The position numbers and the translations under genes are program-made. DNA of 64,000 bases from Brevibacillus sedimenti (GTDB lineage: Bacteria > Bacillota > Bacilli > Brevibacillales > Brevibacillaceae), in the NCBI RefSeq assembly GCF_020923495.1, contig NZ_CP064048.1:2667001-2731000 (forward strand). Direction: 5' to 3'. The notes under the pieces were generated by a model. That model was not told the origin of the DNA, ran no database searches, and saw only the letters and a list, made by a program, of their open reading frames with translations. Shown piece after piece: positions 16,787 through 61,880 of this stretch. The stretch's first letter is position 1. Each line of letters opens with the position of its first letter.

Positions 16787-17195
16787 ATAGCAAGGAATGT
16801 GGGTAGTCGCTGCCGCGGCCGTTCTCGGTCGGCGGTAGAGGAAAGTCCAGGCTCGCCCAGGCTGAGATGCCTGGAGTGTTCGTACCTGGTGCAAACCAGG
16901 GCAGTGAGGCTTCGGCTTCGCTGACGGCGCGGAAAGGGTTCTCCCTGAGACCCGAGTACGCTGAAAGTGCCACAGAAACGGAGCTTCCCTGGCGACAGGG
17001 GAGATGGAACGCGGTAAACCCTGCGAGCGAGAAACCCAAATTTGGTAGGGGAACCGTCCCGAAGGAAATGAACGGAGGGACGGATGGCGGCTGTAAGCTG
17101 CCATAGATAGATGACTACCGCTCTTGGTGCGAGGGGAAAAAGCCCCGCTTGCAGCACGGGAGACACAGAACCTGGCTTACAGCATTCCTTGCTAT
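16787..17195 (+). ncRNA. rnpB: RNase P RNA, Bacillus (B) type
   Basis: About 409 nt. The terminal helix P1 is ATAGCAAGGAATG at 16787-16799 pairing with CATTCCTTGCTAT at 17183-17195. Universal core elements are present: GAGGAAAGTCC at 16837-16847, the ACAGAA block near 16972, and the ATAGATAGATGACTACCG block near 17103. The RNA is the catalytic subunit that matures tRNA 5' ends. Promoter upstream and terminator downstream make it a single-gene unit. Confidence 0.97.
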
Positions 17196-31168: not shown

Positions 31169-31333
31169 CTCTTATCCAGAGAGGTTGAGGGACTGGCCCA
31201 ATGAAGCCTCGGCAACCGGATTACCAGGTGCCAATTCCAGCAAAGCGTGTGCTTTGAAAGATAAGAGGATGGTCATGCGTGTATGTTTCGCGGACAAATC
31301 CTCTTCTTGTTGCACACAGAAGAGGATTTTTTA
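31169..31333 (+). promoter_or_regulatory. SAM-I (S-box) riboswitch with terminator
   Basis: The aptamer spans 31169-31267. P1 is CTTATC paired with GATAAG, with AGAGAGGTTGAGGGACTGGC and CAATGAAGCCTCGGCAACC as the conserved core. The expression-platform terminator is AAATCCTCTTC / GAAGAGGATTT followed by TTTT (31296-31333). SAM binding should stop transcription before metH. The 173 bp before the aptamer hold only the promoter. Confidence 0.96.
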
Positions 31334-44583: not shown

Positions 44584-45552
44584 ATGAAGATAGCAAAAAT
44601 GAAGCCGTGGGAAGCGTATCGAGCCAGCCTGATTCTTTGCAACCATTTCTTTCAAACCGGCGATCTGACGTATCGGGCATGGATGAATCACCCGCTGAAA
44701 AAATTCCTGTTTCAATATCTGGTTTTTCCATTCGTCTGCATGCTGTTTTTTCAGGGGATAAAGCTGGTTGACGCTGAGAGTGGTTCGGAAATAGGCTTCA
44801 TGTTTGTCATGTACCGGAATCAGGTTGCGATTGGGACGGACATCTTCATCCATCCGGAATATCAGGCAAAAGGAGCTGGATTCGCGTTCCTGGTTCGTTA
44901 TGCCCAGTATGCACATCAGAAAGGACTGCGCTATTTTATCGGAAAAATCTCCAGTGAAAATAAACCATCATTAAAGCTCACTACGAAAAAGATGGGAATG
45001 ACTCGCTATTACGATCGCGTCATACTCATCCCGGAGGCCAACATTCCAAAGCATGATTATGTATACAACCGGCTCCAGCTGAACCGATTGCCGAAGAAGG
45101 CGGTAAAGGAAGCGCTGCAATTCGTCGCCAACCAGATGTTTTCCCGACAGTTTCAAACACATGTCGAGGGAATGGGAGGCGTAATCGAGCCCCTGTGGCT
45201 GGGGGCCGTGCACGAGCTGCGTTATGAGGGGGAGTTGGTCGGCTACGCTTCCGTATCCACTACGGACAGTCATCCAATCGTCCGGATATGTTTTCTGCCG
45301 AAATGGTGGGAGAGCGAGTTGGAGACCGCATTCGTTTCCTATCTTGCACGAAAATTGATAACAAAACAGCAGGCGAAAAGCGGTTTGATCGGCGTCCAGG
45401 CAGGGTGTTCCGAGCATCACATGCAGCTGGCGGGCAAGCTGAAAGAACTCGGAGCAGAAGAAAAGGAGCACGCGGAAGTAGCTGTCGTCGGACTGTTCGA
45501 GCAATTGGCACAGCTGGGTGAACGAGAACAGGTCGCATCGTTTTCCTCCTAG
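44584..45552 (+). CDS. GNAT N-acetyltransferase, RiPP locus
   Basis: 322 residues from ATG 44584 (GGGAGG, 6 nt spacing); an in-frame ATG at 44494 lacks a site. Acetyl-CoA binding motif A is in FIHPEYQAKGAGFAFL (Q94-x-x-G-x-G), followed by ENKPSLKLTTKKMG. The first ~170 residues form the GNAT fold and residues ~180-322 a second domain with weaker GNAT-like order. It starts 1 kb before the precursor gene, in the same direction. By analogy with goadsporin GodH it may acetylate the N-terminus of the mature peptide, or act in self-protection; both are inferences. Confidence 0.8.
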   Translation: MKIAKMKPWEAYRASLILCNHFFQTGDLTYRAWMNHPLKKFLFQYLVFPFVCMLFFQGIKLVDAESGSEIGFMFVMYRNQVAIGTDIFIHPEYQAKGAGFAFLVRYAQYAHQKGLRYFIGKISSENKPSLKLTTKKMGMTRYYDRVILIPEANIPKHDYVYNRLQLNRLPKKAVKEALQFVANQMFSRQFQTHVEGMGGVIEPLWLGAVHELRYEGELVGYASVSTTDSHPIVRICFLPKWWESELETAFVSYLARKLITKQQAKSGLIGVQAGCSEHHMQLAGKLKELGAEEKEHAEVAVVGLFEQLAQLGEREQVASFSS

Positions 45553-45588
45553 CGAACATCCGCATGCTCTTGAAAGGAGGTGATAGGA

Positions 45589-45687
45589 ATGAACAAAGAG
45601 CAACTCCTGAAAGCTGTTGCCAACCCTGCAGCTGCTGAAAAGAAAGCAGATGTTGGCACGATCATCTGGACTATTCGCTTGCTGTAA
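45589..45687 (+). CDS. 32-residue RiPP precursor peptide
   Basis: Begins MNKEQLLKAVANPAAAEKK and ends ADVG-TIIWTIRLL. AAAGGAGGTGAT, almost a full anti-16S match, lies 9 nt before the ATG, as expected for a highly expressed precursor. The N-terminal half is helical and charged like a short leader. The C-terminal 9-12 residues are hydrophobic and contain Thr24 and Thr28. There are no Ser or Cys. It is directly followed by a 13-bp hairpin and then the TOMM genes. Substrate status is inferred from position, ribosome binding site and composition. Confidence 0.8.
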   Translation: MNKEQLLKAVANPAAAEKKADVGTIIWTIRLL

Positions 45688-45699
45688 TCGCAGGCGACA

Positions 45700-45730
45700 G
45701 ACAGGATTGAACGTCAGGTTCAATCCTGTC
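45700..45730 (+). other. 13-bp perfect RNA hairpin between precursor and enzymes
   Basis: GACAGGATTGAAC pairs with GTTCAATCCTGTC around a 5-nt loop, without a downstream T-tract. Such elements often stabilise precursor mRNA or partly terminate so that the precursor exceeds the enzymes. Confidence 0.75.
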
Positions 45731-45756
45731 TATCCCATACATAGGAGTGATTTGCG

Positions 45757-46344
45757 ATGATTGGAATTTTGGTCAAAGACAACCGTGATTTGGCCGCCCA
45801 ATTGGCGAATCATTATCAATTGTTCAATCTCTCCGCCCGTGTCATCGAATCGTTGGAAGAGCAGCGGTCGGAGATTGATTTGCTTGTTGTGGTCAATGCC
45901 GGTACGTTCGGCAGTCAGATAAACCAACTCATGCGAAAAGAAGGGAAACGCTGGCTTCATGTTCTATGGGACCGAGGGAGAGTGCTTGCAGGTCCCGTAT
46001 TTCATCCTACGGAAGGTCCCTGCTTTGAGTGCCTGTCGCTTCGGATGAAAGCCAATATGGTCGAGGAGCCGGAACGTCCCGAGATTCCCGAATGCCTGGA
46101 AGAAAACGTGCGCCGGATGATGTGTGACGCTGTCGCATTGGAAACGTACAAATTTGTCTCCAAGGATCACCGCGCAGGGGCTGCCCATATTACGGACCAG
46201 ATGTTGGAGATTGACTTTTTGACGCTTGAAGGGGAGCTTCATCCCGTCCTGCGTGTTCCAACCTGCCCTGTGTGTGGTGTGGAAACCCGCATCCATCAAT
46301 ATGTACAGCCGTGGATGACCCGCTTTTCGGAGGTTGGCTCATGA
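45757..46344 (+). CDS. short E1-like / TOMM cyclodehydratase C-type protein
   Basis: 195 residues. It carries the tetra-cysteine zinc motif of ThiF/E1-like TOMM C proteins: C89-x-x-C92 in EGPCFECLSL and C170-x-x-C173 in TCPVCG. Usual C proteins are ~300-400 residues and begin with a winged-helix peptide clamp (RRE). Here the N-terminus starts directly in a Rossmann-like half (IGILVKDNRDLAAQL), so no obvious RRE is present. It overlaps the YcaO gene by 4 bp and should present precursor to YcaO. Confidence 0.8.
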   Translation: MIGILVKDNRDLAAQLANHYQLFNLSARVIESLEEQRSEIDLLVVVNAGTFGSQINQLMRKEGKRWLHVLWDRGRVLAGPVFHPTEGPCFECLSLRMKANMVEEPERPEIPECLEENVRRMMCDAVALETYKFVSKDHRAGAAHITDQMLEIDFLTLEGELHPVLRVPTCPVCGVETRIHQYVQPWMTRFSEVGS

Positions 46345-47669
46345 GCAGAAAGCGATTGGCAGGCGACTGGAAAGACGTTTCTTCTCTCGGTACGCTGCGT
46401 TCGGTTGTCAGTCGGTATGGCGGCATTGTGCGATGGTTCGCTGATTGCTTGAATGATCCCGGCGATCAAAAACTGTATGCGGCGATGGCGGCGCCCACCT
46501 ACGCGAACGAATTGGTGCCTGGGATCAGCGGCAGCCCCGAGATTACGACGGGGGTTGGATTTACCCGGGAAGAAGCAAGACGTTCCGCTGTAGGGGAAGC
46601 CATCGAACGTTACTGCGGCTCGTACTACGTGCGTTCCGGAATGGCATTGGCTTCCTGGAGAGAACTGAAGGGAGCGGTTCATCCGGAGCGTTTTGCCTGG
46701 TTTCATCCGGATCAATATTTGCAAGAGGATTTTCCCTTTGTGCGGTTTACGGAGGACACCAAGGTGAGATGGGTGCCCGGATACAATTTGACACGGGGGC
46801 AAGAGGTATGGGTCCCGGCGGCAGCGGTATGGGAAAATTATCTTCCCGGCGAGGACGAAGCGCTCGTGTGGAGAGGGTTGACCACGGGACTTTCATGCGC
46901 CCCCACAGCGGAAGAAGCCGTATTGCGGGGGATATTGGAAATCGTCGAACGGGACTCGTATTCCATCATGTGGCACAACAAACTAAGTTTGCCCAGGCTG
47001 AATGTGGAAAGCAACAAGCGGCTTCATGAGATCTACCAACAGTATTTTGCCGCGGAACACTTCCGGTATCATCTGGTTGATACGACCACGACGCTTGGCA
47101 TTCCTGCAGTTTGCGCCATCATGAAAGCGCCGAATGGACGAACCATTGTCGGAGCCGCTTCCCGCCCTTCCCTGGAGGAAGCATGCATCAAGGCGCTGTG
47201 TGAGATTGCGCAGCAGTGGATGGGATGCCGCTACCTTTCTACCAAATACATTCACTTTACCCTCACGCCTGACGAAGTTGAGGATTTCGTGCTGCGTCCG
47301 TTCTTCTATTGTGACGAGCTGAACCACAGCCATGCAGCATTCGTCTATCAGTCAACGGTCGAAAACGATGTGCCGGCGGGGAAATGGCTGTCCGAACTGA
47401 ATGTGACGGAGGAGTTGGACAAGTGTATCGCAGCGCTGGAACGGAACGGACTAGAGGTGATTGCCGTCGACATTACATTGCCGGACGTCAGACAGCTCGG
47501 CTTGCACGTCTATCGGGTCATCGTTCCCGGGGCGGTCGACATTACGCGCAGTGAAAAGGAAAAGGTTGCGGGCGGAACCCGGCTTTATCAGGTGCCTGTT
47601 GAGATGGGATACCTGGACCGTCCCTACACATACCACAAATTGAATCCCATGCCACATCCCCTTCCGTAA
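46341..47669 (+). CDS. YcaO-domain azoline-forming cyclodehydratase
   Basis: 442 residues from ATG 46341 (GGAGG upstream, overlapping the previous stop). ATP/Mg-binding acidic motifs are visible: AVGEAIERYCG, the E200-x-x-E203-R-D205 block (EIVERDSYSIMW), and CIKALCEIAQQW. The C-terminus is P436-M-P-H-P-L-P442, the PxPxP tail typical of azoline-forming YcaOs. It would convert Thr to methyloxazoline in the precursor with ATP. A thioamide or amidine role is less likely given the PxPxP tail and C partner. Confidence 0.92.
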   Translation: MSRKRLAGDWKDVSSLGTLRSVVSRYGGIVRWFADCLNDPGDQKLYAAMAAPTYANELVPGISGSPEITTGVGFTREEARRSAVGEAIERYCGSYYVRSGMALASWRELKGAVHPERFAWFHPDQYLQEDFPFVRFTEDTKVRWVPGYNLTRGQEVWVPAAAVWENYLPGEDEALVWRGLTTGLSCAPTAEEAVLRGILEIVERDSYSIMWHNKLSLPRLNVESNKRLHEIYQQYFAAEHFRYHLVDTTTTLGIPAVCAIMKAPNGRTIVGAASRPSLEEACIKALCEIAQQWMGCRYLSTKYIHFTLTPDEVEDFVLRPFFYCDELNHSHAAFVYQSTVENDVPAGKWLSELNVTEELDKCIAALERNGLEVIAVDITLPDVRQLGLHVYRVIVPGAVDITRSEKEKVAGGTRLYQVPVEMGYLDRPYTYHKLNPMPHPLP

Positions 47670-47697
47670 CAGAGCCGTTGGAGCTGGGAGGTTTTCG

Positions 47698-48387
47698 ATG
47701 AAAAGAGGAATAGACTATTCTTTCCGTTTGATCGAGCACAATCGTTTGCACCCGGAACATGTGACTGCGTGGTATCACGAAAACAGCAAGCTGTTTCCCT
47801 CTGTATATTGGGCAAAAGAGGAAGCGAGAAAAGAACTGCTGTCGATTCTGCATGAACGATATCATGTGGAACACTCGTATAAAGATTATGGAATCGCAGA
47901 AGAATTGGACATAAACGAACGAGAGGAGCTTCCTTCCTCCATACGCTCCTTGAAAGACTTGGCGCCGCACGCTGCCGGGCTGAATGCCGTGGAACTCTAT
48001 GCTGTGACAAGCAGTCATGGCGTCAATACCTTCTATTATTTTGATTTCCGCCGGTCAAAGCTGGTCCCGCTGCGCACTAGTTCCGATTCGTTTCTGCGTG
48101 ACGCGCTGATCCATTCCGCCGAGGGGGAAGCGGATTCGGCCATCATCGTGACGGCCAATCTCGATCGAGGGATGCTGCTGCACGGAGAACGCGGTTATCG
48201 TGCGGTGCTGCTGCAGACTGGCAGAATGGTTGAAAAAATCACGACCCGGTGGGAGCGTGACCATATCCCGCATAAGGTGCATGTGGAATTTTTTGATGAT
48301 CGCCTTCATGAGCGAATGGGGATCGACGGCTTTTACGAAGCGGTTTTTGCCGTGTTAACGGTGTTCAAACAGGGGGTAGACGCTTGA
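47698..48387 (+). CDS. divergent SagB-like (nitroreductase fold) azoline dehydrogenase
   Basis: 229 residues, shorter than most SagB proteins. The C-terminal LLHGERGYRAVLLQTGRMVEKI matches the GERGYR-xx-L-x-x-G block of SagB/BcerB. AAGLNAVELYAV resembles the PSAG-x-x-x-x-E-x-Y segment, with the first residues replaced. No N-terminal RRS-type FMN phosphate motif is evident. It may still oxidise methyloxazoline to methyloxazole, or be inactive. GGGAGG precedes ATG 47698. Confidence 0.7.
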   Translation: MKRGIDYSFRLIEHNRLHPEHVTAWYHENSKLFPSVYWAKEEARKELLSILHERYHVEHSYKDYGIAEELDINEREELPSSIRSLKDLAPHAAGLNAVELYAVTSSHGVNTFYYFDFRRSKLVPLRTSSDSFLRDALIHSAEGEADSAIIVTANLDRGMLLHGERGYRAVLLQTGRMVEKITTRWERDHIPHKVHVEFFDDRLHERMGIDGFYEAVFAVLTVFKQGVDA

Positions 48388-49577
48388 ATGTTCAGGATCG
48401 GCCTGTCAACGACAATCTCCGGTTGGTAAACGTTGAGACAGGTAAATTTTTGACGTCAGCCTATTACGTTCTGTTTCGTGTCCCGCCTGACTGGCCGCTA
48501 TGGTTTTGGAGCGGCATGATGGACAGCCTGGTCGCGATTCACTGTATACAGCATCCGGACAGTCGCAGGTGGGAACGGCCGGAGATTGTTGAGCACAGGT
48601 TTCAAGAGGCGAGTTATGTTGGGCTCAAGATGGAATCGCTGTCGAGCGGCGAACCATTTGGTACAGATGACAGCCATGTCCAATTCCTCCTGTCCGTCGT
48701 CTGTGCGCCGCTGATTAACCAGGAAGCGTACGTGAACTGGATGTCCGCAGCCCCCCGCAAGATCGCACGCAGAAGGATTCACGTCACGAGCGCAATCGAC
48801 CCTGTCACCTCATCTTTGCTGCGTTTTCTGGACGCGGACGGCGACAAATGGGGAGACGAACTGTTGGATTGTTCTTTCATCGCACGGCAGTACGACCATC
48901 TTGTTCGGGAGGCTCCCGCTATCTGTTATGCAATTGGTACAGGCGATCCCGCCCAAAATTGGAGAGCGCTGCAGAGTTGGTGTGGAGAGCGTTCGCGGCT
49001 GTGGACTGCTGACGTTAAACAGGAAAGGACGGGAGTTGATCCGCGTGTTCCCGATCCCGTCTCCGGGACGGATGCCGGCGATTCCCATCTGATTGTCTTG
49101 CCATACCGGCTGACAGCGAAGAACCCCTCTTTGCCAGCGCGCATCAGCCTTCAGGTTGCCAATGCCCTGTTGGGCGGATGCTTCCACTCCAAGTTGATTT
49201 CCCGCATACGCAGAGAACTGGGGTTGGCTTACTTCGCGTTCTCCGTGTGGGATCAAACGACGGGAACAATCGTGATGGTGGCAGGGGCGGAGCCTGACAA
49301 TCGCGATCAGGTGCGCGAAGAGATGGTGGGACAGCTCCACGCCCTGCAGCGAGGTGATTTTACCGATCGCGACCTGCAGGTGACCAAGCGGTTTCTGATC
49401 AGTGATGCGTGGTACACCATGGATGATTGTGATTCCATCGTCAGCTGTCATCTTGCTCATGTCGAGACAGGGGAACCATTCGAACCTGCATCCAGGGTTG
49501 CGCTTATTCAAGACGTGACCAAGCAGGATGTAATGGAGGCTGTGTCTTTCCTGGAACCTGTTCTGATGGAGGAGTAA
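48384..49577 (+). CDS. M16-family peptidase homologue without zinc site
   Basis: 397 residues. TTG 48384 overlaps the previous stop (TTGA) and follows GGGGGTAG. It has the C-terminal M16B signature (CFHSKLISRIRRELGLAYFAFS, quoted as a pattern) that binds substrate, but no HxxEH. It therefore looks like the non-catalytic partner of the next gene, as in AlbE/AlbF or YmfF/YmfH pairs. Its likely role is leader removal or peptide degradation as part of a heterodimer. Confidence 0.82.
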   Translation: MNVQDRPVNDNLRLVNVETGKFLTSAYYVLFRVPPDWPLWFWSGMMDSLVAIHCIQHPDSRRWERPEIVEHRFQEASYVGLKMESLSSGEPFGTDDSHVQFLLSVVCAPLINQEAYVNWMSAAPRKIARRRIHVTSAIDPVTSSLLRFLDADGDKWGDELLDCSFIARQYDHLVREAPAICYAIGTGDPAQNWRALQSWCGERSRLWTADVKQERTGVDPRVPDPVSGTDAGDSHLIVLPYRLTAKNPSLPARISLQVANALLGGCFHSKLISRIRRELGLAYFAFSVWDQTTGTIVMVAGAEPDNRDQVREEMVGQLHALQRGDFTDRDLQVTKRFLISDAWYTMDDCDSIVSCHLAHVETGEPFEPASRVALIQDVTKQDVMEAVSFLEPVLMEE

Positions 49578-49578
49578 T

Positions 49579-50844
49579 ATGAAGGCAATTCGAAATGGTT
49601 CCGATTGGCAATGTGTGGAGTGCCACAACGGGATGACCGTTCTGTTTATCGAAAAACCGCAATACTACTCCGCACACGTTCGGCTCGTGGTGAAGTACGG
49701 TTCGCTTCACCACCGGTTTTTTGACCCGATTTCATCCGCCACAGTGGTTCAACCCGAAGGTGTGGCGCATTTTCTTGAGCACGCCCTTTTTCCCAGTGAG
49801 GGCAATGACGCGTACGTTCAACTGGCTGAATACGGAGCCGATTTGCAGGCTTCCACCTATATTGACCGAACGGCCTTCTATTCCACCACCGTTGGAAACG
49901 TCATGGACACGGTGGGCTTTTTGCTGGAGTTGGCATTTCGTTCGAACATCACGGAAGACAGGATTCAGCTGGAAAAACAAGTCATTCAAAATGAAATGTT
50001 GATGTCTCAAGCAGATCCGGCTGAAGTGGCGAGACAAAACATGTTGAATGCCTTGTACTGGAACCATCCTGTCAAAAAGGACGTCAAAGGGACAGAGGAG
50101 TCTCTGTCGCAAATCACGCTCGACCATGTGCGAACGGCCCATTCCCTGTTTTACGTACCGCACAATTGTCTGCTTCTGGTCGCGGGGAATGTTCACATAC
50201 ACGATCTGGTGGAACGAGCAGAGCAAATGGTTTCCCGAAAGCCATTCGCCGCCACGGCAGATCTGCTTGAGTGGCGAGAACCGCCTAACGCCGTGCAGGA
50301 CTTCTCGCATGCGGAAATGGGCTTGAATCAGGCGTACGTGCACGTCGGATACAAGCATGTCCATGCCGGTCTGACAGCAACCGCTCTGTTTCAGGAGGAG
50401 TTGGTCATTCGCATTTGTGCCGTGATGCTGGAACATGAATTGTACAATTTGCTCAACGAGAAGGAATTGACCGGTGATGATGGATCGGCTGACGCCATTA
50501 GGGTGAACTACTGCCGGGCAGCCGATGCCGGATATCTGGAGATCACTGCTCAGACCGATTCATGGGAATGGTTTCGTGAAGCTGTCATGCAGGCGGCAGA
50601 GCGGGTGAGAAATGCCCCATGGTCGGAATCGCTTGCGGATGACTGGAAAAAATTGTGGCTGCTGCGCTGCCAAAAAGAAGCAAATGACCTGAGCGTCTTG
50701 ACGTATTATCTGGAAAAATGGTGGACAACGCTGGAGGGGTTTGATTTGGACCGCACCTTGAGGAACATTTCCGCACGACATCTCCGCGATGCGATCGAGC
50801 GCTTGCTAGTTCCGGAAAACATGGCAGTGAGCGTTGTTTGTTGA
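49579..50844 (+). CDS. M16 zinc peptidase (active subunit)
   Basis: 421 residues. The inverse zinc motif H64-F-L-E-H68 (GVAHFLEHALF) is intact, with a further Glu in the helix LEKQVIQNEM (~residue 140). It is the catalytic half of an M16B pair with the preceding gene, one base apart. In subtilosin (AlbF) and several TOMM loci, such pairs remove the leader. The cut between leader and core of the 32-residue precursor is its presumed job. Confidence 0.9.
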   Translation: MKAIRNGSDWQCVECHNGMTVLFIEKPQYYSAHVRLVVKYGSLHHRFFDPISSATVVQPEGVAHFLEHALFPSEGNDAYVQLAEYGADLQASTYIDRTAFYSTTVGNVMDTVGFLLELAFRSNITEDRIQLEKQVIQNEMLMSQADPAEVARQNMLNALYWNHPVKKDVKGTEESLSQITLDHVRTAHSLFYVPHNCLLLVAGNVHIHDLVERAEQMVSRKPFAATADLLEWREPPNAVQDFSHAEMGLNQAYVHVGYKHVHAGLTATALFQEELVIRICAVMLEHELYNLLNEKELTGDDGSADAIRVNYCRAADAGYLEITAQTDSWEWFREAVMQAAERVRNAPWSESLADDWKKLWLLRCQKEANDLSVLTYYLEKWWTTLEGFDLDRTLRNISARHLRDAIERLLVPENMAVSVVC

Positions 50845-50856
50845 CCATGATCAACA
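50839..50856. repeat. inverted repeat between protease and ABC genes
   Basis: TGTTGA-CCATGA-TCAACA, overlapping the protease stop. It is a possible operator or mRNA-processing structure in the only sizeable gap (82 bp) of the operon downstream of the precursor. Confidence 0.35.
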
Positions 50857-50926
50857 TTCACCCAAATGAATGACGTCCCCGCTTGGAGTTACCGTTCAAC
50901 ACCCGGATGGATTGTGAGGAGAAAAC

Positions 50927-51700
50927 ATGAATGATCAGAAATATTCCATTGAACTCCTGAACCTGAAAAAACGATATGGAGATTTCGAAGCCGTTCACGA
51001 TCTCACGCTGCACGTGAAAAAGGGAAGCATTTTTGCATTCCTGGGAAATAACGGTGCCGGGAAAACCACGACGATTAAAATGATGACCGGACAGCTGAGG
51101 CCGACGGGGGGAAAGGTGCATATCCTGGGCCAGGATATCTGGGAAGATCGCAAAGCGCGAAAACAGGTCGGGTATGTTCCTGACACCCCTCTGTTGCACG
51201 AAGGGCTGACGGCTCGTGAAATGCTGTGGTTCGTTGGCGGATTGTACGGGATTCCGCTTGAGACTGCCAGGCAGCGGGCTGATCAATTGCTGGGACAAAT
51301 GGGGTTGTCGGAGCGAGCCGATGATTTGATTCGCGACTTTTCGTTGGGGATGAAACGGAAAATGGCGATTGCAGCCGCCTTGATCCACAAACCGGAAGTC
51401 TTGTTGCTGGACGAGGTCACCAACGGTCTGGACCCCAGAGCGAGCCGGGAAGTGAAGGAACTGATCAAGGAAGTTGCTCGCGAAGGATGTACCGTTTTCT
51501 TGACAACACACATCCTGGATATCGTGGAAGAATTGGCGGACACCATCGCGATTTTGCATAAAGGGCAATTGAAAATCCAGGGGACATTGGAGGAGCTGAG
51601 GTCTGTCGTCGAGATGCCCAACGCCACCCTTGAGCAAATCTTTTTGTCGTTGACCGGGGAAGAGGGACAAGGAGGGAGTCAGGCATGTCAGACCAGTTGA
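50927..51700 (+). CDS. ABC transporter ATP-binding protein, RiPP export/immunity
   Basis: 257 residues. Walker A GNNGAGKTT, signature FSLGMKRKMAIAAALI, Walker B LLLDEVTNGLDP and the H-loop TTHILD are all present. In the CcmA-like family used for peptide export and self-resistance. It overlaps the permease gene by 16 bp, so the two form one transporter. It has no peptidase domain, so leader removal must be separate (the M16 pair). Confidence 0.92.
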   Translation: MNDQKYSIELLNLKKRYGDFEAVHDLTLHVKKGSIFAFLGNNGAGKTTTIKMMTGQLRPTGGKVHILGQDIWEDRKARKQVGYVPDTPLLHEGLTAREMLWFVGGLYGIPLETARQRADQLLGQMGLSERADDLIRDFSLGMKRKMAIAAALIHKPEVLLLDEVTNGLDPRASREVKELIKEVAREGCTVFLTTHILDIVEELADTIAILHKGQLKIQGTLEELRSVVEMPNATLEQIFLSLTGEEGQGGSQACQTS

Positions 51701-53184
51701 AATCCATCTGTTTGCTCTACCTGAAACCCCGTTGGAATACCGGTTTCCGCCACAGTCGTCTGAAACCTGCGCTGTGGATGCGGTTGAGCGAAGTGCTCGT
51801 TGCGTTTCTGCTGGTCGACCGTGTGGCTCATCTGCTGGTTAACTTTGATCTAACCGCCCTGCTGTATCTGGCAGCTGTTGAGGCCATGCTGGTAGGAAGT
51901 TTGCGCCTGTTTTTTGACGTCTCGTCCCAAATGTACCAGCATCGGCTCATGCCTCTCATCGTCGCCTCGGGAGCCCCGCCTTTTCTCCACCTGACCGGCA
52001 TGTGGCTTGCTTCCCTGCCGATGATGGGATGGTCCGCCCTGATTTTCTCCTATGCGTTGACGGGGAATTTTCAGGGGCTCGATCGCATAACCTCCATGGC
52101 GGCCGTTTTTGCGGTGTCGTTTGCGGCCAACGCCCTCTGGGAGCTGTTGGGCCGTTTGTATCTGGCCGTCTTTGTGTACCTTCAGCCGCGGCTCGTGAAG
52201 ATGCTGTTTGGCTTGTCCATTGTAGGCTTTATCGCCGTAATTGCAGGGGTGGCTTACCTGCTGGTGCGGATGCCGATGTTCGCGTCGGCTGATGTTGCAG
52301 CACTGGAGCGGTATACGTTGTACGCGATGGGCATCCTCGGCATCCCCGGACTGGTATTGGCGCTGATGCCTCGCAGGGTAGGGACGTGGTATGTAGACGG
52401 GTGGCTTCGCATGCAGGAGACCGGACACACGGTACGGTCCACCAAGTCCGGTTTTGTTCGCATCGTTCCCGGAATTCCCGGAACAATTCAGGCGAAGGAT
52501 GTGGCCGTCATCTGGCGGAATCCGATCACCAAAATCCGCTTGATCGTATGGGGAGTGTTATTGCTTGGCCTTGCCTGGTTGATCAGCAGTCATACAAATG
52601 ACGGTCAATTCGCGTTCTGGGGCGTGTCGGTTGCCGCCAGCTCGCTGATTCCCTTCATCTCCGTATTCCTTTCCGTTCTGGTCTTTGGTGAGATTGCCGT
52701 CACGCTGTATACAGCTGAACGGGAATGCGTGTATCTGTATCAGGTGGCTGGCATTTCCTACACCTCGCTGGTGGCTGGCAAAGCAGCCAGTGCATCGCTC
52801 CTGATCACCTTGCCGGCGCTCATCGGCAGTCTCCTGTTGGGCGTTTGCACGAAACAGCCGGGCTGGGCAATTGCTGCCGGGCTGGGCAATACTTTGCTGA
52901 TCTCCACGCTTACCGTTTTGCTTAAGGTAGGCATTCTCATCTTCGACAAGAGCGGCCTGAAAAAACAGGTCATGGAAGAGCAGTCCGGTCAACAGGTGAT
53001 GCTGGAACAGGTTCCCCGTTCGCTCCTGTCGGCGGTGGCCTTTTGGGGGGCACTGTTTTATATCGGGGCCTTCTGGAAAGTATGGACGGATATGTGGCTG
53101 GAACCCGCGCTCATTTGGGCCGTGTTTGCCGCTCCGCCGTTGATCTTGTTGGTATTGGGCAGAAAGAGAGGGTTCGTTCAATGA
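51685..53184 (+). CDS. ABC transporter permease, RiPP locus
   Basis: 499 residues with about 12 hydrophobic segments and few soluble regions, consistent with an ABC-2-like exporter subunit. AAGGAGGGAG precedes ATG 51685. It is translationally coupled at both ends (16-bp overlap with the ATPase, 4-bp ATGA overlap with the leader-like peptide). It probably exports the mature peptide or confers immunity. Confidence 0.85.
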   Translation: MSDQLKSICLLYLKPRWNTGFRHSRLKPALWMRLSEVLVAFLLVDRVAHLLVNFDLTALLYLAAVEAMLVGSLRLFFDVSSQMYQHRLMPLIVASGAPPFLHLTGMWLASLPMMGWSALIFSYALTGNFQGLDRITSMAAVFAVSFAANALWELLGRLYLAVFVYLQPRLVKMLFGLSIVGFIAVIAGVAYLLVRMPMFASADVAALERYTLYAMGILGIPGLVLALMPRRVGTWYVDGWLRMQETGHTVRSTKSGFVRIVPGIPGTIQAKDVAVIWRNPITKIRLIVWGVLLLGLAWLISSHTNDGQFAFWGVSVAASSLIPFISVFLSVLVFGEIAVTLYTAERECVYLYQVAGISYTSLVAGKAASASLLITLPALIGSLLLGVCTKQPGWAIAAGLGNTLLISTLTVLLKVGILIFDKSGLKKQVMEEQSGQQVMLEQVPRSLLSAVAFWGALFYIGAFWKVWTDMWLEPALIWAVFAAPPLILLVLGRKRGFVQ

Positions 53185-53363
53185 TTGTGGATCAAGAGGG
53201 ATGGGTCGAGGTAAACGGCAAGAAGATCAGGGTGGAAGAATTAATCCGCGCCTGGAAAGATCCCGACTACCGCTCGCAGTTGTCTCACCTCCTCGGACGA
53301 GTTCCGCACCCCTCCGGGTACCCGTTGGATGAACTCAGTGAGGAGATTCTGGATCAGGAATAG
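53181..53363 (+). CDS. core-less class II lanthipeptide leader-like protein
   Basis: 60 residues. Residues 19-58 read ELIRAWKDPDYRSQL ... PHPSGYPLDELSEEIL. This follows the class II lantibiotic leader pattern W-K-x-P-x-x-R ... P-(A/S)-G-x-x-x-x-E-L seen in mersacidin, lichenicidin and haloduracin leaders. The protein ends two residues later (DQE, then TAG), with no GG/GA cleavage site and no core. The LanM gene starts 15 bp downstream, so no core can be hidden between. It is coupled to the permease stop (ATGA). It probably acts as a free leader that binds LanM. Confidence 0.8.
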   Translation: MIVDQEGWVEVNGKKIRVEELIRAWKDPDYRSQLSHLLGRVPHPSGYPLDELSEEILDQE

Positions 53364-53378
53364 AAGAGGGGTGAATCG

Positions 53379-56228
53379 ATGAAAACAAAATGGCTGGCAG
53401 CATCCTATCCGGAGGATTTTTCTGGTGTCGGGCAATCAAATGTTGATACGGCAGGTGACTTCGACCGGGGATGGGAGGACATTCTGGAAACCATTGCTAA
53501 TCGACCCGAGTTCCATTCCGCCGTATCGCTGACGCCTCTTCCCGGAAACGAGGACGCAAGCCTTCCGTTTCTTTCGTTTGTGGAACCTTTTTTGCATCTT
53601 GCGCGCGAACGATGGACGGAAGCAATCCCCGAACTGGGGTTTGGACCAGAAACAGTGGAAGTGGATCAGCTGTCATTGGTAAACAGCTTGCTGGTCGCCT
53701 TGGGAGAACAACTGCATGACATTGCGTCGAGAGCATTGGCCATGGAGCTGCATATCGCTGATTTGACCAACGAACTAACGGGGCAGACCGCCTCCGAGCG
53801 GCTCCATTCATTTGCGGAAAGCAAGCTGCGTGATCCGAAATTTTTCCGGGCGACGTTGGAGGAGTATCCGGTATTGGGGAGACTGTTGGCGACGCGTACG
53901 CTGTACTGGATTCAGTTTTCGCTGGAAGCCCTGAGCCACTTCGTCCAGCATTTCCCTAACATCCAGGCACTGATGGACGGGACGTTTGGCAAGCTGGCGG
54001 AGGTGCGCGGGGGAGTATCCGACCCCCATAACCGCGGCAGAAGCGTACTGTTTTTTGTGTCGAACAGCGATCAAATCGTCGTCTACAAACCGCGGTCAAT
54101 GGCTGTGGATGTATGTGTTCAATCCCTGTTGGCATACTTGAACGACCAAGGATTCCCCTGCCCGTTTTACGTCCAACGCGTTCTGGATTGTGAAGTGTGC
54201 GGCTGGGTGCCGTATGTTGAACCGAAGGAATGCCAGTCTGTGGAGGAAGTGCAGCGATTTTTCTTCAGACAGGGGGCCTATTTGGCCATCTGGCATCTGT
54301 TGGACGGAAATGATTTTCATGCGGAAAATGTGATCGCGCACGGGGAACATCCCCTTTATATCGATGTGGAGACGCTGTTCCAAACGCCGTTTTTCCAATT
54401 TGACAGCGGTACAGCCGAAGGAATCGCCAGCCAGTATCTGTTCGATTCCCCCCTGCGGACAGGACTGCTGCCCGTCTTGGCTTATCCGTCCGAGGGGCAG
54501 CCGGGGGTGGAATTCAGCGGTCTGGGCGGCGATGAGTCGGAAGTCACGTATTCAGTGGAATGGCTGGATACGGAAGGGGACGATCTTCCCGTATTCAGGC
54601 GCTCTTCCTTCCCCTTGCCTCCGTTTGACAATTTGCCCATGTTGGACGGCAAGAGGATGAAGGCCGTCGACTTTCTGTCGTTTATTGAAAAGGGATTTGA
54701 ATGGATATACCGCTTCTTCGCTGAACGCAAACAGGAGTTGACAGCTCAAGGGGGAATATTGGACCGGTTCCGCCGCGTTCGCATTCGCTATGTGATCCGT
54801 TCCACCCAACACTATTACAATTTTCTGCAGGCGGGGAATCACCCTGACTACCTGAAAAGCGGACGGGATCGCGAAAAGCTGCTGGATCGACTGTACCTCG
54901 GGACAAAGCGATATCCGCTGCGAAAGCAATTTGTTCCGCATGAAAAACGGGACCTGCTGTACGGAGACGTCCCCTTGTTCACGACCCAACCGGACTCCAG
55001 GGACGTCCAAGACGCGCAAGGCAGATGCGTGGTCACCATGTCGCAAGCAAGCGGGTGGGATCGCGTGATGCGCCGCTTGGATCTGCTGGGGGAAGACGAT
55101 CTGGCAAAATCCCTTGCCATCATCCGGAAGACGATCCTTTCCACCAAACGTGAGCGCATGGACGTGCAGGGGGGAGGTGGAGACAGCCGGCCGACAGCGG
55201 TCGAAGTGAGCGGGGGGGACGTGCTCGGGTGTTTGCGGGGAATTGCCAACCACCTGGTTGATCAGGCTTTTTGGAATCCGCTTCGTACGGAAGCCACCTG
55301 GATTGGCTTTCAGTGCAACCGGTTCGGTCAGTGGAGTTACGATGTGCTTGATGGGTCCCTCTCCGACGGATTGGTCGGTCTGTCGCTGTTGTTGGTGGGT
55401 ACAGGGACGATGTTGAAGGAAGGGAGCTATATCGACACAGGCCTGGCTGCGTTTCACACGCTCCTGGGCAGCAAGCGTCCCATCCGCCGGGCGGATGTCC
55501 TGTATGGAAGCGTGATGCTGCACCGTTTTCTCGGAGACGTTCGCTATGCGGAATGGGCGAGAGAGCAGGCAGGGTTGCTGATACGCGAGGTGCGGGAAAA
55601 CCGTTTGGAGAACGTTGTGTCCTTGTTTGAAGCGGCGAAGGCATCTGTGTGTTATTGGGAAGCGGATCAAACGGAGGCGGCGCGTACGGCGGTGAACGAA
55701 ATCGCCGCGCGCTTGTATCAAAAACTGCTGCAGGACGGCCAGGGCAAGGAATGGGTTCTCCCGTTGGTCAAACGTCTGGAACGACTGGGAGTGGCATCTG
55801 CGGGCGCGTTGAATTTAGAGCGTCCGTCCCTGCACAACCTTTCCCAGTGGGAGCGGCTCCATGTACTTGCAGATTGCCTTGGCTTGGGCGGAGAGCCAGG
55901 CGCCTGCTTCAAATCCATAGAAGGAGAAATTGCAGAAGGAGAATTTCAACAGCTTGCTCAGCAATCCTTGCCCAATGATGGATATGCGAGCGGAACGGCC
56001 GGAGCGGTAGAAGTGCTTCTCCTCGGCGGACAGTGTTTCAATGACCCCGATTGCATCCGCCAGGCAGCAAAACTTGCTCAAAAGTTGGCCGCTCGAACAG
56101 GCTGGACGTTTGATTCTCCGTCCTCATCCGATACACCCGGCTTATACCGGGGGGTGTCGGGAATCGCATACGCGCTGTTGCGTTCATCATTCCCGGAAAA
56201 GGTTCCTCCTTTTGCCCTTTACATGTAG
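53379..56228 (+). CDS. LanM-type lanthionine synthetase with degenerate cyclase
   Basis: 949 residues. The DUF4135 dehydratase (about 90-600) retains its kinase and lyase residues: K237 in VYKPRS, D312-x-H314-x-x-N317 in GNDFHAEN, D329 in YIDVETLF, R474-x-T476 in RSTQHYYNF, then LLYGDVPLFTTQPDSRD. The C-terminal LanC-like part (about 625-949) keeps the fold markers (SLSDGLVGLSLLL; PGLYRGVSGIAYALLR). It lacks the HG, WCxG and CHG zinc-ligand motifs; the CHG position reads A870-S871-G. It is predicted to phosphorylate and eliminate Thr/Ser but not form thioether rings. GAGGGG precedes ATG 53379. Confidence 0.9.
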   Translation: MKTKWLAASYPEDFSGVGQSNVDTAGDFDRGWEDILETIANRPEFHSAVSLTPLPGNEDASLPFLSFVEPFLHLARERWTEAIPELGFGPETVEVDQLSLVNSLLVALGEQLHDIASRALAMELHIADLTNELTGQTASERLHSFAESKLRDPKFFRATLEEYPVLGRLLATRTLYWIQFSLEALSHFVQHFPNIQALMDGTFGKLAEVRGGVSDPHNRGRSVLFFVSNSDQIVVYKPRSMAVDVCVQSLLAYLNDQGFPCPFYVQRVLDCEVCGWVPYVEPKECQSVEEVQRFFFRQGAYLAIWHLLDGNDFHAENVIAHGEHPLYIDVETLFQTPFFQFDSGTAEGIASQYLFDSPLRTGLLPVLAYPSEGQPGVEFSGLGGDESEVTYSVEWLDTEGDDLPVFRRSSFPLPPFDNLPMLDGKRMKAVDFLSFIEKGFEWIYRFFAERKQELTAQGGILDRFRRVRIRYVIRSTQHYYNFLQAGNHPDYLKSGRDREKLLDRLYLGTKRYPLRKQFVPHEKRDLLYGDVPLFTTQPDSRDVQDAQGRCVVTMSQASGWDRVMRRLDLLGEDDLAKSLAIIRKTILSTKRERMDVQGGGGDSRPTAVEVSGGDVLGCLRGIANHLVDQAFWNPLRTEATWIGFQCNRFGQWSYDVLDGSLSDGLVGLSLLLVGTGTMLKEGSYIDTGLAAFHTLLGSKRPIRRADVLYGSVMLHRFLGDVRYAEWAREQAGLLIREVRENRLENVVSLFEAAKASVCYWEADQTEAARTAVNEIAARLYQKLLQDGQGKEWVLPLVKRLERLGVASAGALNLERPSLHNLSQWERLHVLADCLGLGGEPGACFKSIEGEIAEGEFQQLAQQSLPNDGYASGTAGAVEVLLLGGQCFNDPDCIRQAAKLAQKLAARTGWTFDSPSSSDTPGLYRGVSGIAYALLRSSFPEKVPPFALYM

Positions 56229-56332
56229 GTCATGGAGAAAATGCTTCCTCGATGCTGGTTGATGGGGCGGATAACAGTTCCTGTCATGATGGAGTGCAAA
56301 CGGGCGGAAATCACCAATCGGTGTGTGGATAT

Positions 56333-56367
56333 ATGAAGAAAATTATGAAGAAATTATGAAGAAGTAA
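56333..56367 (+). repeat. three tandem ATGAAGAA-type repeats
   Basis: ATGAAGAAAATT, ATGAAGAAATT and ATGAAGAAGT occur head to tail at 11-12 bp, in the AT-rich 250-bp gap (56229-56478) between LanM and the regulator. They may bind the LytTR regulator or be slippage products. The gap has no other feature. Confidence 0.5.
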
Positions 56368-56478
56368 TGTTTGGGAAATATATGCTGGACTAGAAAATAT
56401 TGAGAATGATAGAATTTGAAGAGGAAAAAAAAGACTCTGGTTCATAGGATGGAGTTGAGACCAAAGGGGTAATGAGGC

Positions 56479-57222
56479 ATGTATGTGGACATGTATTTTA
56501 CAGCGATCGTCGCTCATCAGGACCCAGAGACATGTGAATTCCTCTCCAATTTATTGACAGAAAGGATGTGGGGAGTTACCGGGATTGCGACAACAGGACA
56601 GGAGGCGATTGATGCAGTATTTCGGAACAAAGCGGATATCGTGTTTCTCGATCCTGAATTGCGTGATCAAAATGGGGCCTATGTGGCCCAACAACTTGCT
56701 ACGTTGTTTCCGCATACGGAATCAGTTCTGGTGCTGGCCGAATCCACCCACCCATCTTGGGCGTTTGAAATTGATGCGGTCGATTACATCGTAAAGCCCT
56801 TTGAACGGGAGAGGCTGCACAAGAGTCTCTACAAGATTGAGTGCTATCTCTTCGGGAAAAGGGCGGACCCTCGTTTTGTAAGCAGTTTTATCGGCATCCG
56901 CAACAACAATGAGATTGAGTTTATTGATCAGCGCGACATCGTCTTGATTTCATCCGAAAAACGGGTAACCAAAATCTACCTTCACTCCCCTGAACGCCGC
57001 AGAGTAATAAAAGTTTCCGAAAGCTTGTGTTCATTTGAAAAACGCTTGCATGCGACAAGCTTTTTTCGGACTCACCGCAGTTATCTGATCAATTTGCGAT
57101 ATCTTCACAAAATTTATCCATCAGGCCAAACGTATATCGCCACCTTTAAAGGTTTGCAGGAGATTGCATACGTAAGCAAAAACAAAATCGGAACGTTGTA
57201 CAAAATGGTCAACATTGGCTAG
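56479..57222 (+). CDS. orphan LytTR response regulator of the RiPP locus
   Basis: 247 residues. A receiver domain with D58 (IVFLDPEL) and the Lys in DYIVKPFE is followed by a LytTR DNA-binding domain (FFRTHRSYLINLRYL). The usual acidic pair is reduced to HQD and the conserved Thr/Ser region reads LAEST, so phosphorylation may be weak. No histidine kinase is encoded nearby. It probably controls the RiPP genes. It may start at ATG 56479 (GAGG adjacent, AAGGGG 11 nt upstream) or ATG 56491. Confidence 0.85.
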   Translation: MYVDMYFTAIVAHQDPETCEFLSNLLTERMWGVTGIATTGQEAIDAVFRNKADIVFLDPELRDQNGAYVAQQLATLFPHTESVLVLAESTHPSWAFEIDAVDYIVKPFERERLHKSLYKIECYLFGKRADPRFVSSFIGIRNNNEIEFIDQRDIVLISSEKRVTKIYLHSPERRRVIKVSESLCSFEKRLHATSFFRTHRSYLINLRYLHKIYPSGQTYIATFKGLQEIAYVSKNKIGTLYKMVNIG

Positions 57223-60092: not shown

Positions 60093-60227
60093 CTATTGAA
60101 ACTGGCGGGTGAGCATCCGTTCGAGCACGGCGACGCCTTGGTACATCAGGGTGGCGACTACCGCAATGATCGCCAGGCTCACCATGACCAGCGTGAAGGT
60201 AATAAAACTGCTTAAAAAATCATCCAT
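60093..60227 (-). CDS. 44-residue membrane peptide overlapping the recombinase stop
   Basis: Starts MDDFLSSFITFTLVMVSLAI and has one long membrane helix. Its ATG overlaps the last codons and stop of the serine recombinase gene, so it would be translationally coupled to it. No ribosome binding site other than recombinase sequence is visible. It may be a real small protein or the remnant of the insertion target. No family is recognised. Confidence 0.45.
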   Translation of the reverse strand: MDDFLSSFITFTLVMVSLAIIAVVATLMYQGVAVLERMLTRQFQ

Positions 60228-61692
60228 GAAACACAAGCGACTCCAATACATATCCGCGCGGCTCTTTCGGGTGCCTTTGCGCCGTAATGCTCTTGACCAG
60301 GATAGACACAAATTGTTTCTTTTCCTCAAAGGACAGTTCTTCCCAAGACTGTTGCAGATTTTCGTACAGGGAGAGCAATTGTTCAATTGAGAAACGGTTT
60401 TCCAGCTGTTCGGACTCGGTTTGAATCAACTGTTCCAGCTCGGCTTGGCGAGTATTGAACGCCTCCAGCTGCTTTCGCAGTTCATCCATCTCAATGAGGT
60501 CTGCGATGAAAAGCTGTTGGAGGCGTTTGCGCTTCTGCTTCAGAGACTCCAGTTCTCGTTTGTAGTCGTCAAGGTTTGCGGCTTTCAGGCAAGCGTTTTT
60601 GTCTCCTGTTACCTCACGCCTGATCTGATCGGTACGGTTGCGCAGCTCAGCCAAAAACAAGTGCTCCAATTTGTCTTCACGTATCTGGAAGTGATGACAA
60701 GCACCTGGCTTTGTAAACGAGCAGCGATAATACCTGACAGGCTGACCTGGCGTCTTTTTTCCTTTGCTGCGGTAAGTGGTTCCGTTCAACGTGCTGCCGC
60801 AGTTCGGGCATTTCACCAGGCCGGAAAAGAGGTACCCGGAAGCTACACTCCGCGGTTTTTTCATCGCTTGTGCGTCGAGGATTTTTTGAACAAAATAAAA
60901 TTCCTCTTTATCGATGATGGGAGGAAGCGCATCCTCAACGATGATCCAGTCTTCTTCCGGTTTTACGGTTGTGATGGTGCCTGTTTGGGTGGTGTAATTA
61001 TAGCGGAGTGTGCCGATATATATCGGGTTTTTCAAGATTTTTTGGACGGTGTTGACAGAAAAAATGGCATTGTTTTTCGTTCTGCACCCTTGACGATATA
61101 ACTCTTCAGCTACTTTATTGAAATTGGCGTGCTTGGCATATAGCCGAAAGATCATCCTGACAGTTTCGGCCTCTTTCTCGTTCACAACGAGTTCTCCATC
61201 TAATTTGTCATATCCAAAAGGGGCTTTCCCGCCTGGCCGTTTCCCTTGCCGGGCCTTTTCCTCTTTCCCGAATTTCGTGCGTTCCCCGAGGTTTTCCCGT
61301 TCCCATTGAGCAAGGGCGGCAACCAGCGTAATGAACAGCCTGCCGATCGCTGTTGTCGTGTCGTATACTTCTGTAGCGCTCTTGAACTTTACGTTGTGAC
61401 GATCAAACTCCTGAAGAAGGTTGTACAAGTCCAGGACAGATCGCGTCAGCCGGTCCAGCCGGTACACAAGCACAACGTCAATCAGCCCGGCGCGGATGTC
61501 ATTGAGCATTCGCTGTAATTCAGGACGATTGGTATTCTTCGCGCTGACCCCTTCATCGATGTAGTAATCAGCGATTTCCCAGCCTTGCGATGTTATATAG
61601 GCCGTTAAACGTTCGCGTTGAGCAGGGATGGAATATCCTTCTTTGGCCTGTTCGTCCGTACTGACACGGATGTATAAAGCGGCTTTTTTCAT
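60220..61692 (-). CDS. large serine recombinase (resolvase/integrase family)
   Basis: 490 residues from ATG 61692 (GGGAGGGGAG upstream); the frame is open 37 codons further. The resolvase catalytic domain has ALYIRVSTDEQ with the Ser nucleophile, then VYRLDRLTRS. The Recombinase domain (about 165-270) and zinc-ribbon Cys (KCPNCGSTLNG ... RCSFTKPGACHH) follow, then a coiled coil. It is the type of integrase used by phages and mobile elements. No other phage genes are nearby, so it is a lone element or relic. Confidence 0.93.
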   Translation of the reverse strand: MKKAALYIRVSTDEQAKEGYSIPAQRERLTAYITSQGWEIADYYIDEGVSAKNTNRPELQRMLNDIRAGLIDVVLVYRLDRLTRSVLDLYNLLQEFDRHNVKFKSATEVYDTTTAIGRLFITLVAALAQWERENLGERTKFGKEEKARQGKRPGGKAPFGYDKLDGELVVNEKEAETVRMIFRLYAKHANFNKVAEELYRQGCRTKNNAIFSVNTVQKILKNPIYIGTLRYNYTTQTGTITTVKPEEDWIIVEDALPPIIDKEEFYFVQKILDAQAMKKPRSVASGYLFSGLVKCPNCGSTLNGTTYRSKGKKTPGQPVRYYRCSFTKPGACHHFQIREDKLEHLFLAELRNRTDQIRREVTGDKNACLKAANLDDYKRELESLKQKRKRLQQLFIADLIEMDELRKQLEAFNTRQAELEQLIQTESEQLENRFSIEQLLSLYENLQQSWEELSFEEKKQFVSILVKSITAQRHPKEPRGYVLESLVFHG

Positions 61693-61880
61693 GATGCGAC
61701 TCCCCTCCCTACAGGTATGCATATGCAGCAATTCTTCCGTGTCTGCAACGCGAATGATGCGTTGCGCTGCTTCCCCAAAATTGACCGTGATTTTCACAGC
61801 CATTTGAGAGGGTGAGCCGGGTTGAGCGTCATGTTAAACAAGCTGCTCGACATAAAGTGACACTAAAGGAGGGGATGAAC

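Follow-up and report, generated by a model that had tools for sequence, protein, structure and literature searches.

Introduction

Clusters that encode a YcaO protein together with a DUF4135 (LanM-type) dehydratase are already known among those for ribosomally synthesised and post-translationally modified peptides (RiPPs). Pei, Zhu and Nair (2023) described about 50 such clusters, those of the dehydrazoles, and carnazolamide as a product, with the cca cluster (PMC10676384). According to that report, CcaM is leader-independent and dehydrates solely the Ser immediately before an azole, a rule by which the competition of the two enzymes is settled in dehydrazoles, and goadsporin owes its dehydration to a split class I LanB (PMC10676384). 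YcaO genes were also noted in some class I-III lanthipeptide clusters (PMC7268733). Regarding LanM itself, a further paper (PMC7296275) states that leader binding is believed to bring the enzyme into its active state, and that a leader added in trans or fused lets LanM modify isolated cores. Here we analyse a 64,000-nucleotide stretch of Brevibacillus sedimenti (the window; positions 2,667,001-2,731,000 within the single 3.93-Mb contig NZ_CP064048.1), in which a thiazole/oxazole-modified microcin (TOMM) gene set, a 32-residue precursor (peptide A) and a LanM stand in one run, with a lanthipeptide-type leader gene that has no core directly before lanM. A preliminary description of this DNA knew of no described product from such an architecture, which carnazolamide and the other clusters of PMC10676384 contradict; the core-less leader, the lost zinc site of LanM and the absence of a leader-binding domain from the C protein were left undeveloped there and are the subject of this work.

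Results

A detached leader gene precedes lanM

The stand-alone leader gene has 60 codons and shares its first 4 bp with the end of the permease gene. Its product aligns with positions 1-40 of the 44-position model TIGR03898 (mersacidin/lichenicidin precursors) and ends in LDQE followed at once by the stop codon, with neither a GG site nor a core. Fifteen bp in the same reading frame separate this stop from the start of lanM, and such a short interval leaves no room for a hidden core to be reached by frameshifting. The segment between the two frames (53361-53378) consists of one TAG and five codons; read-through of the TAG would yield a leader-LanM fusion resembling the engineered one.

Other members of the family look different. 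A survey of 398 Bacilli genomes gave 23 TIGR03898 matches in 14 genomes, and all 22 matches other than that of the window extend into a tail of 24-45 residues with at least one Cys, which follows GG or GA in 20 cases and GR in 2. A phylum-wide draw of 398 genomes returned only the window's own match and is hence uninformative on tails. Among the matches listed from 5.8 billion proteins there are two homologues of the leader, P0213 (90% identical) and P0214 (82%). Both have 60 residues, and all three copies agree completely over their last 19 residues; these are the three sequences on which leader conservation was judged. P0213 is named from Brevibacillus thermoruber, and its NCBI name is lantibiotic although it is core-less.

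Peptide A offers only two modifiable residues

Peptide A reads MNKEQLLKAVANPAAAEKKADVGTIIWTIRLL. It contains no Ser and no Cys, so that T24 and T28 are its only modifiable residues; both precede Ile, and no Ser or Thr of A stands before Ser, Thr or Cys. Between 44200 and 57300, A is the sole small frame on the + strand that lies outside a larger gene and has a Shine-Dalgarno match of at least five bases. By eye it resembles no precursor of L024 or L025, the loci of the closest YcaO relatives (see below), or of six more distant YcaO loci, four of which (L026, L028, L030 and L035) have small frames whose ends are rich in Cys; the same screen recognised no small precursor-like frame at the remaining two (L032 and L041). 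The KKAD of A is similar to QAAD, after which an M16 heteromer of class III lanthipeptides cleaves (PMC10885120), and A is perhaps cut after KKAD and before VG. None of 200 shuffles was as stable as the hairpin that follows A (72 nt folded), and this hairpin may raise the precursor dose by acting in the processing or stabilisation of the mRNA.

Translation by eye also revealed a frame of 34 codons, containing both Cys and Thr, directly 3' of lanM (about 56235-56339). LanM and the leader could serve an unrecognised peptide encoded there or by a distant gene, with A as a pure TOMM substrate. We consider this very unlikely, because the frame is absent from those with a good ribosome site and because the window's genome contains no further TIGR03898 match at the cut-off.

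LanM keeps its dehydratase residues and has lost its zinc ligands

The window LanM and P0002, the two groups from which LanM conservation was judged, both retain each of the nine dehydratase residues checked. The cyclase domain retains its fold, and all three zinc ligands (Cys, Cys, His) are gone. Because these ligands are lost and A is free of Cys, no thioether rings are expected, in agreement with the linear product predicted earlier. The loss of both the zinc site and the core could alternatively mean that LanM and the leader are lanthipeptide remnants in a TOMM operon, with only the YcaO pathway acting on A, and the flanking DNA examined at L024 and L025 contains no LanM. Such decay seems improbable to us, however, considering the complete set of dehydratase residues, the conserved leader and a run of genes that overlap or nearly touch.

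The catalytic His is common to CylM and the window LanM, whereas Trp takes its place in all three dehydrazole-type loci printed (L074, L079 and L085), the dehydrazole-type loci L080 and L084 standing outside this comparison. A quick full-length tree placed the window LanM apart from the dehydrazole-type LanMs; a careful tree of the dehydratase domain did not reject a grouping of the two (approximately unbiased test, p 0.553), and because it allows this union, an independent origin of the zinc-less LanM is not claimed. The same tree thus permits a reading in which the window LanM, like CcaM (PMC10676384), needs no leader and works only on the YcaO-modified peptide, while the leader frame is a fossil left over from an ancestral lanthipeptide operon; the pairing of a YcaO with a DUF4135 protein that lacks zinc ligands, known from dehydrazoles, would fit it too. 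Nevertheless, this reading is unlikely. The CcaM rule is inoperable here because neither Thr of A stands before a cyclisable residue, the window enzyme keeps the His that the three printed relatives have replaced, and a fossil leader is unlikely to keep its length and its last 19 residues.

TOMM enzymes, M16 pair and transporter

The SagD-type YcaO has an E1-like partner, the combination by which a TOMM or linear azol(in)e peptide cluster is recognised, and by sequence C and YcaO look like an azoline-forming pair. The C-terminus of YcaO is proline-rich (NPMPHPLP), which bears out the PxPxP tail reported before. The C protein, to which the following statement is limited, has no N-terminal leader-binding domain (RiPP recognition element, RRE): its residue 1 aligns with TruD 112, LynD 113 and McbB 97, in a comparison using a model with a predicted local distance difference test score of 70.7 built from three sequences. 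The SagB-like protein matches PDB 3eo7 at E 6.1e-11. It is divergent, as are those of L024 (11278-12066) and L025 (6155-6904), and any binding of flavin mononucleotide and oxidation of azolines by the three is putative. The M16 pair (48384-50844) is the probable leader protease. Family scans found no C39 domain in the transporter proteins, and no Pfam or NCBIfam match for the permease.

Locus layout

The 32-residue precursor, C protein, YcaO, SagB-like protein, M16 pair, ATP-binding cassette (ABC) transporter and LanM named in the preliminary description were all found, and together with the flanking genes they are co-directional on the + strand (Table 1). The run from A to LanM comprises ten genes with operon-like spacing, four overlaps and a widest gap of 82 bp; the GNAT gene ends 36 bp upstream of A. 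The sequence thus supports the hybrid YcaO plus class II dehydratase operon proposed earlier, and we regard it as very probable that the locus is a hybrid RiPP operon. Scans for promoters (8 vs 8.3 ± 2.7 in shuffles) and terminators (17 vs 14.3 ± 3.5) gave no clear excess. The GNAT protein may serve N-acetylation or self-protection, N-acetylation being suggested solely by this neighbouring gene. The LytTR protein is a possible operon regulator.

Table 1 Features of the locus at 44584-57222 of the window
Feature	Position	Strand	Evidence and remarks
GNAT-family acetyltransferase, first of run	44584..45552	+	Pfam Acetyltransf_1, E 8.4e-8; membership uncertain
Precursor peptide A, 32 aa	45589..45687	+	Two Thr; strong ribosome site
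Hairpin, interval between precursor and C genes	45699..45731	+	14 bp; no T-run; z -5.39
E1-like C protein	45757..46344	+	TIGR03882, 66.9 bits (cut-off 36.9)
YcaO cyclodehydratase (SagD/D protein)	46341..47669	+	TIGR03604, 295 bits (cut-off 219)
SagB-like putative azoline dehydrogenase, divergent	47698..48387	+	TIGR03605, 37.4 bits (below cut-off 78.4)
M16 peptidase-like partner, YfmF-like, without HxxEH	48384..49577	+	Family scans, motif check
M16 zinc peptidase, YfmH-like, HFLEH present	49579..50844	+	Family scans, motif check
ABC transporter ATPase	50927..51700	+	Family scan; no C39 peptidase domain match
Putative ABC permease	51685..53184	+	Suggested by place after ATPase and hydrophobic look
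Stand-alone mersacidin-type leader, 60 aa	53181..53363	+	TIGR03898, 39.1 bits (cut-off 23.5)
LanM	53379..56228	+	DUF4135, E 3.5e-103; TIGR03897, 550 bits (cut-off 304)
LytTR response regulator	56479..57222	+	Family scan; 250 bp from LanM; membership uncertain

About 3 kb beyond the regulator, a large serine recombinase (Resolvase, Recombinase and zinc ribbon domains) is encoded at 60220-61803 on the - strand, and G+C is 0.48-0.56 from 44 kb onward vs 0.53-0.63 upstream (2-kb blocks). Recombinase and G+C shift suggest that the cluster may be located on an acquired island. Elsewhere, the window carries an RNase P class B RNA (16795-17184) and an S-adenosylmethionine riboswitch (31169-31267).

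Distribution among genomes

When YcaO and DUF4135 were called at E 1e-10 in the Bacilli survey, YcaO was present in 109 of the 398 genomes, DUF4135 in 35 and both in 14. Seven of these 14 have the two families on one contig, with a distance of 7.3 kb in the window genome and of at least 92.6 kb in the other six; the remaining seven have them on different contigs, so that distance could not be judged. Such neighbours are therefore rare in Bacilli, and their adjacency in the window is more than chance. The window genome contains a second YcaO (G000:C1:641192-642361) in a 672-codon open frame, and 24 of 26 genus genomes have some YcaO match, mostly in frames of about 650-700 codons.

No orthologue of the window YcaO was found in the 26 genus genomes, where the next best match is 31% identical, and none of LanM in 39 family genomes, with one 29% match in G018; a 41-genome search for LanM likewise found none, and the DNA from A to YcaO had no match in the same 39 genomes. 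Among viral contigs, searched with the LanM pair, no relative was confirmed, and in plasmids LanM matched 187 records, all below 60% identity and none covering 80% of the query. In the protein listing, the next YcaO after the window's is 40% identical, among the matches listed.

A genome-collection scan with ten YcaOs was evaluated for the best 80 of at least 520 confirmed stretches. Five of these 80 (L074, L079, L080, L084 and L085), all outside Bacillota, have a LanM homologue in the flanking DNA. The closest YcaO relatives among them are L024 (1951-12066, Paenibacillus ihuae) and L025 (125-6904, Saccharibacillus kuerlensis), at 41 and 38% identity. The earlier suggestion that relatives without a LanM would point to chance neighbours receives a mixed answer: these two flanks lack it, but both loci belong to a different, daptide-like type of cluster with C-YcaO-SagB attached. 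They encode several precursors ending in Thr, a short-chain dehydrogenase/reductase, a methyltransferase and an HExxH membrane protein, with an aminotransferase in L024. YcaO is among the protein families met in daptide clusters, according to a figure legend of PMC10036551.

Discussion

The core-less leader suggests that a natural leader acting in trans activates a LanM that only dehydrates, on behalf of a precursor without this leader, a reading to which we give about an even chance of being correct. From the sequences we infer the following scheme, with A as the shared substrate. C and YcaO would form a methyloxazol(in)e from a Thr of A. Binding of the detached leader in trans would hold LanM in its active state. 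So activated, the enzyme would dehydrate a Thr of A, giving dehydrobutyrine even though A has no LanM leader, and would form no thioether ring. The M16 pair would trim A near the KKAD/VG junction, the ABC pair would provide export or immunity, and the final product would be a short linear peptide from A. The exact chemistry at each Thr is proposed with low confidence. The position of the leader gene directly before lanM fits activation by leader binding, and a leader acting in trans would make a GG site unnecessary; none is present, nor is a C39 match in the transporter. We further suggest, somewhat more tentatively, that a separately encoded, reusable leader could allow LanM to be enlisted for a foreign TOMM precursor, which retains just a short leader of its own, with neither enzyme reading a canonical substrate leader, as the C protein has no RRE.

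Several observations weigh against the trans-acting leader. The zinc triad is partly missing in eight further LanM rows, and P0070 and P0113 lack all three ligands; zinc-ligand loss alone is therefore not unique to the window LanM. The action of LanM on A is deduced from their common operon. The complete locus is known once, and A and the leader-LanM pairing are known from one strain; nothing else of the cluster was found in the 39 family genomes, P0213 may represent close kin of the strain that carries the window, and P0002 either has no YcaO beside it or has one that is concealed within the window's 90% cluster.

If true, the trans-acting leader would provide a route for hybrid RiPP evolution in which an enzyme is freed from its substrate tag, a ready-made dehydratase that could be paired with azole enzymes, and a clean test of two enzymes sharing just two Thr.

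Comparison with known systems

Linear azol(in)e peptides, including goadsporin, share C, YcaO and a SagB-like protein with the window, and goadsporin combines azoles with dehydroamino acids as proposed here; the C protein of linear azol(in)e peptides carries an RRE, whereas that of the window does not. Class II lanthipeptides of the mersacidin/lichenicidin type share the LanM dehydratase residues and the TIGR03898 leader. However, they have a leader, a GG-type site and a Cys core in succession and a zinc cyclase; the window has neither, and no C39 match in its transporter. A separated leader activates LanM in the engineered leader-in-trans and leader-fused systems (Levengood 2007; Oman 2012; as cited in PMC7296275). 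In the window a natural gene of its own encodes the leader, in frame with and next to lanM and ended by a stop codon, and activation is putative; the leader would serve as an activating subunit that can be reused, and would parallel those experiments in nature. In the literature on YcaO+LanM hybrids, trans leaders, B. thermoruber clusters, daptides and goadsporin-like hybrids, represented mostly by titles and abstract openings, we recognised no natural stand-alone LanM leader.

The dehydrazoles are closest, since they too combine in one cluster a YcaO and a DUF4135 dehydratase without zinc ligands, with no thioether ring expected. They have a long NHLP leader with a core rich in Ser, Thr and Cys, an S8 protease and, in the three relatives printed, Trp for the catalytic His, whereas the window has a 32-aa precursor with two Thr and no Ser or Cys, an M16 pair, the retained His and a separate leader gene. 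Because the modification rule, the precursor type and the catalytic His differ, we do not file the window locus as a dehydrazole: the YcaO+LanM architecture is already known, and this locus differs in its precursor, its LanM, its C protein and its detached leader.
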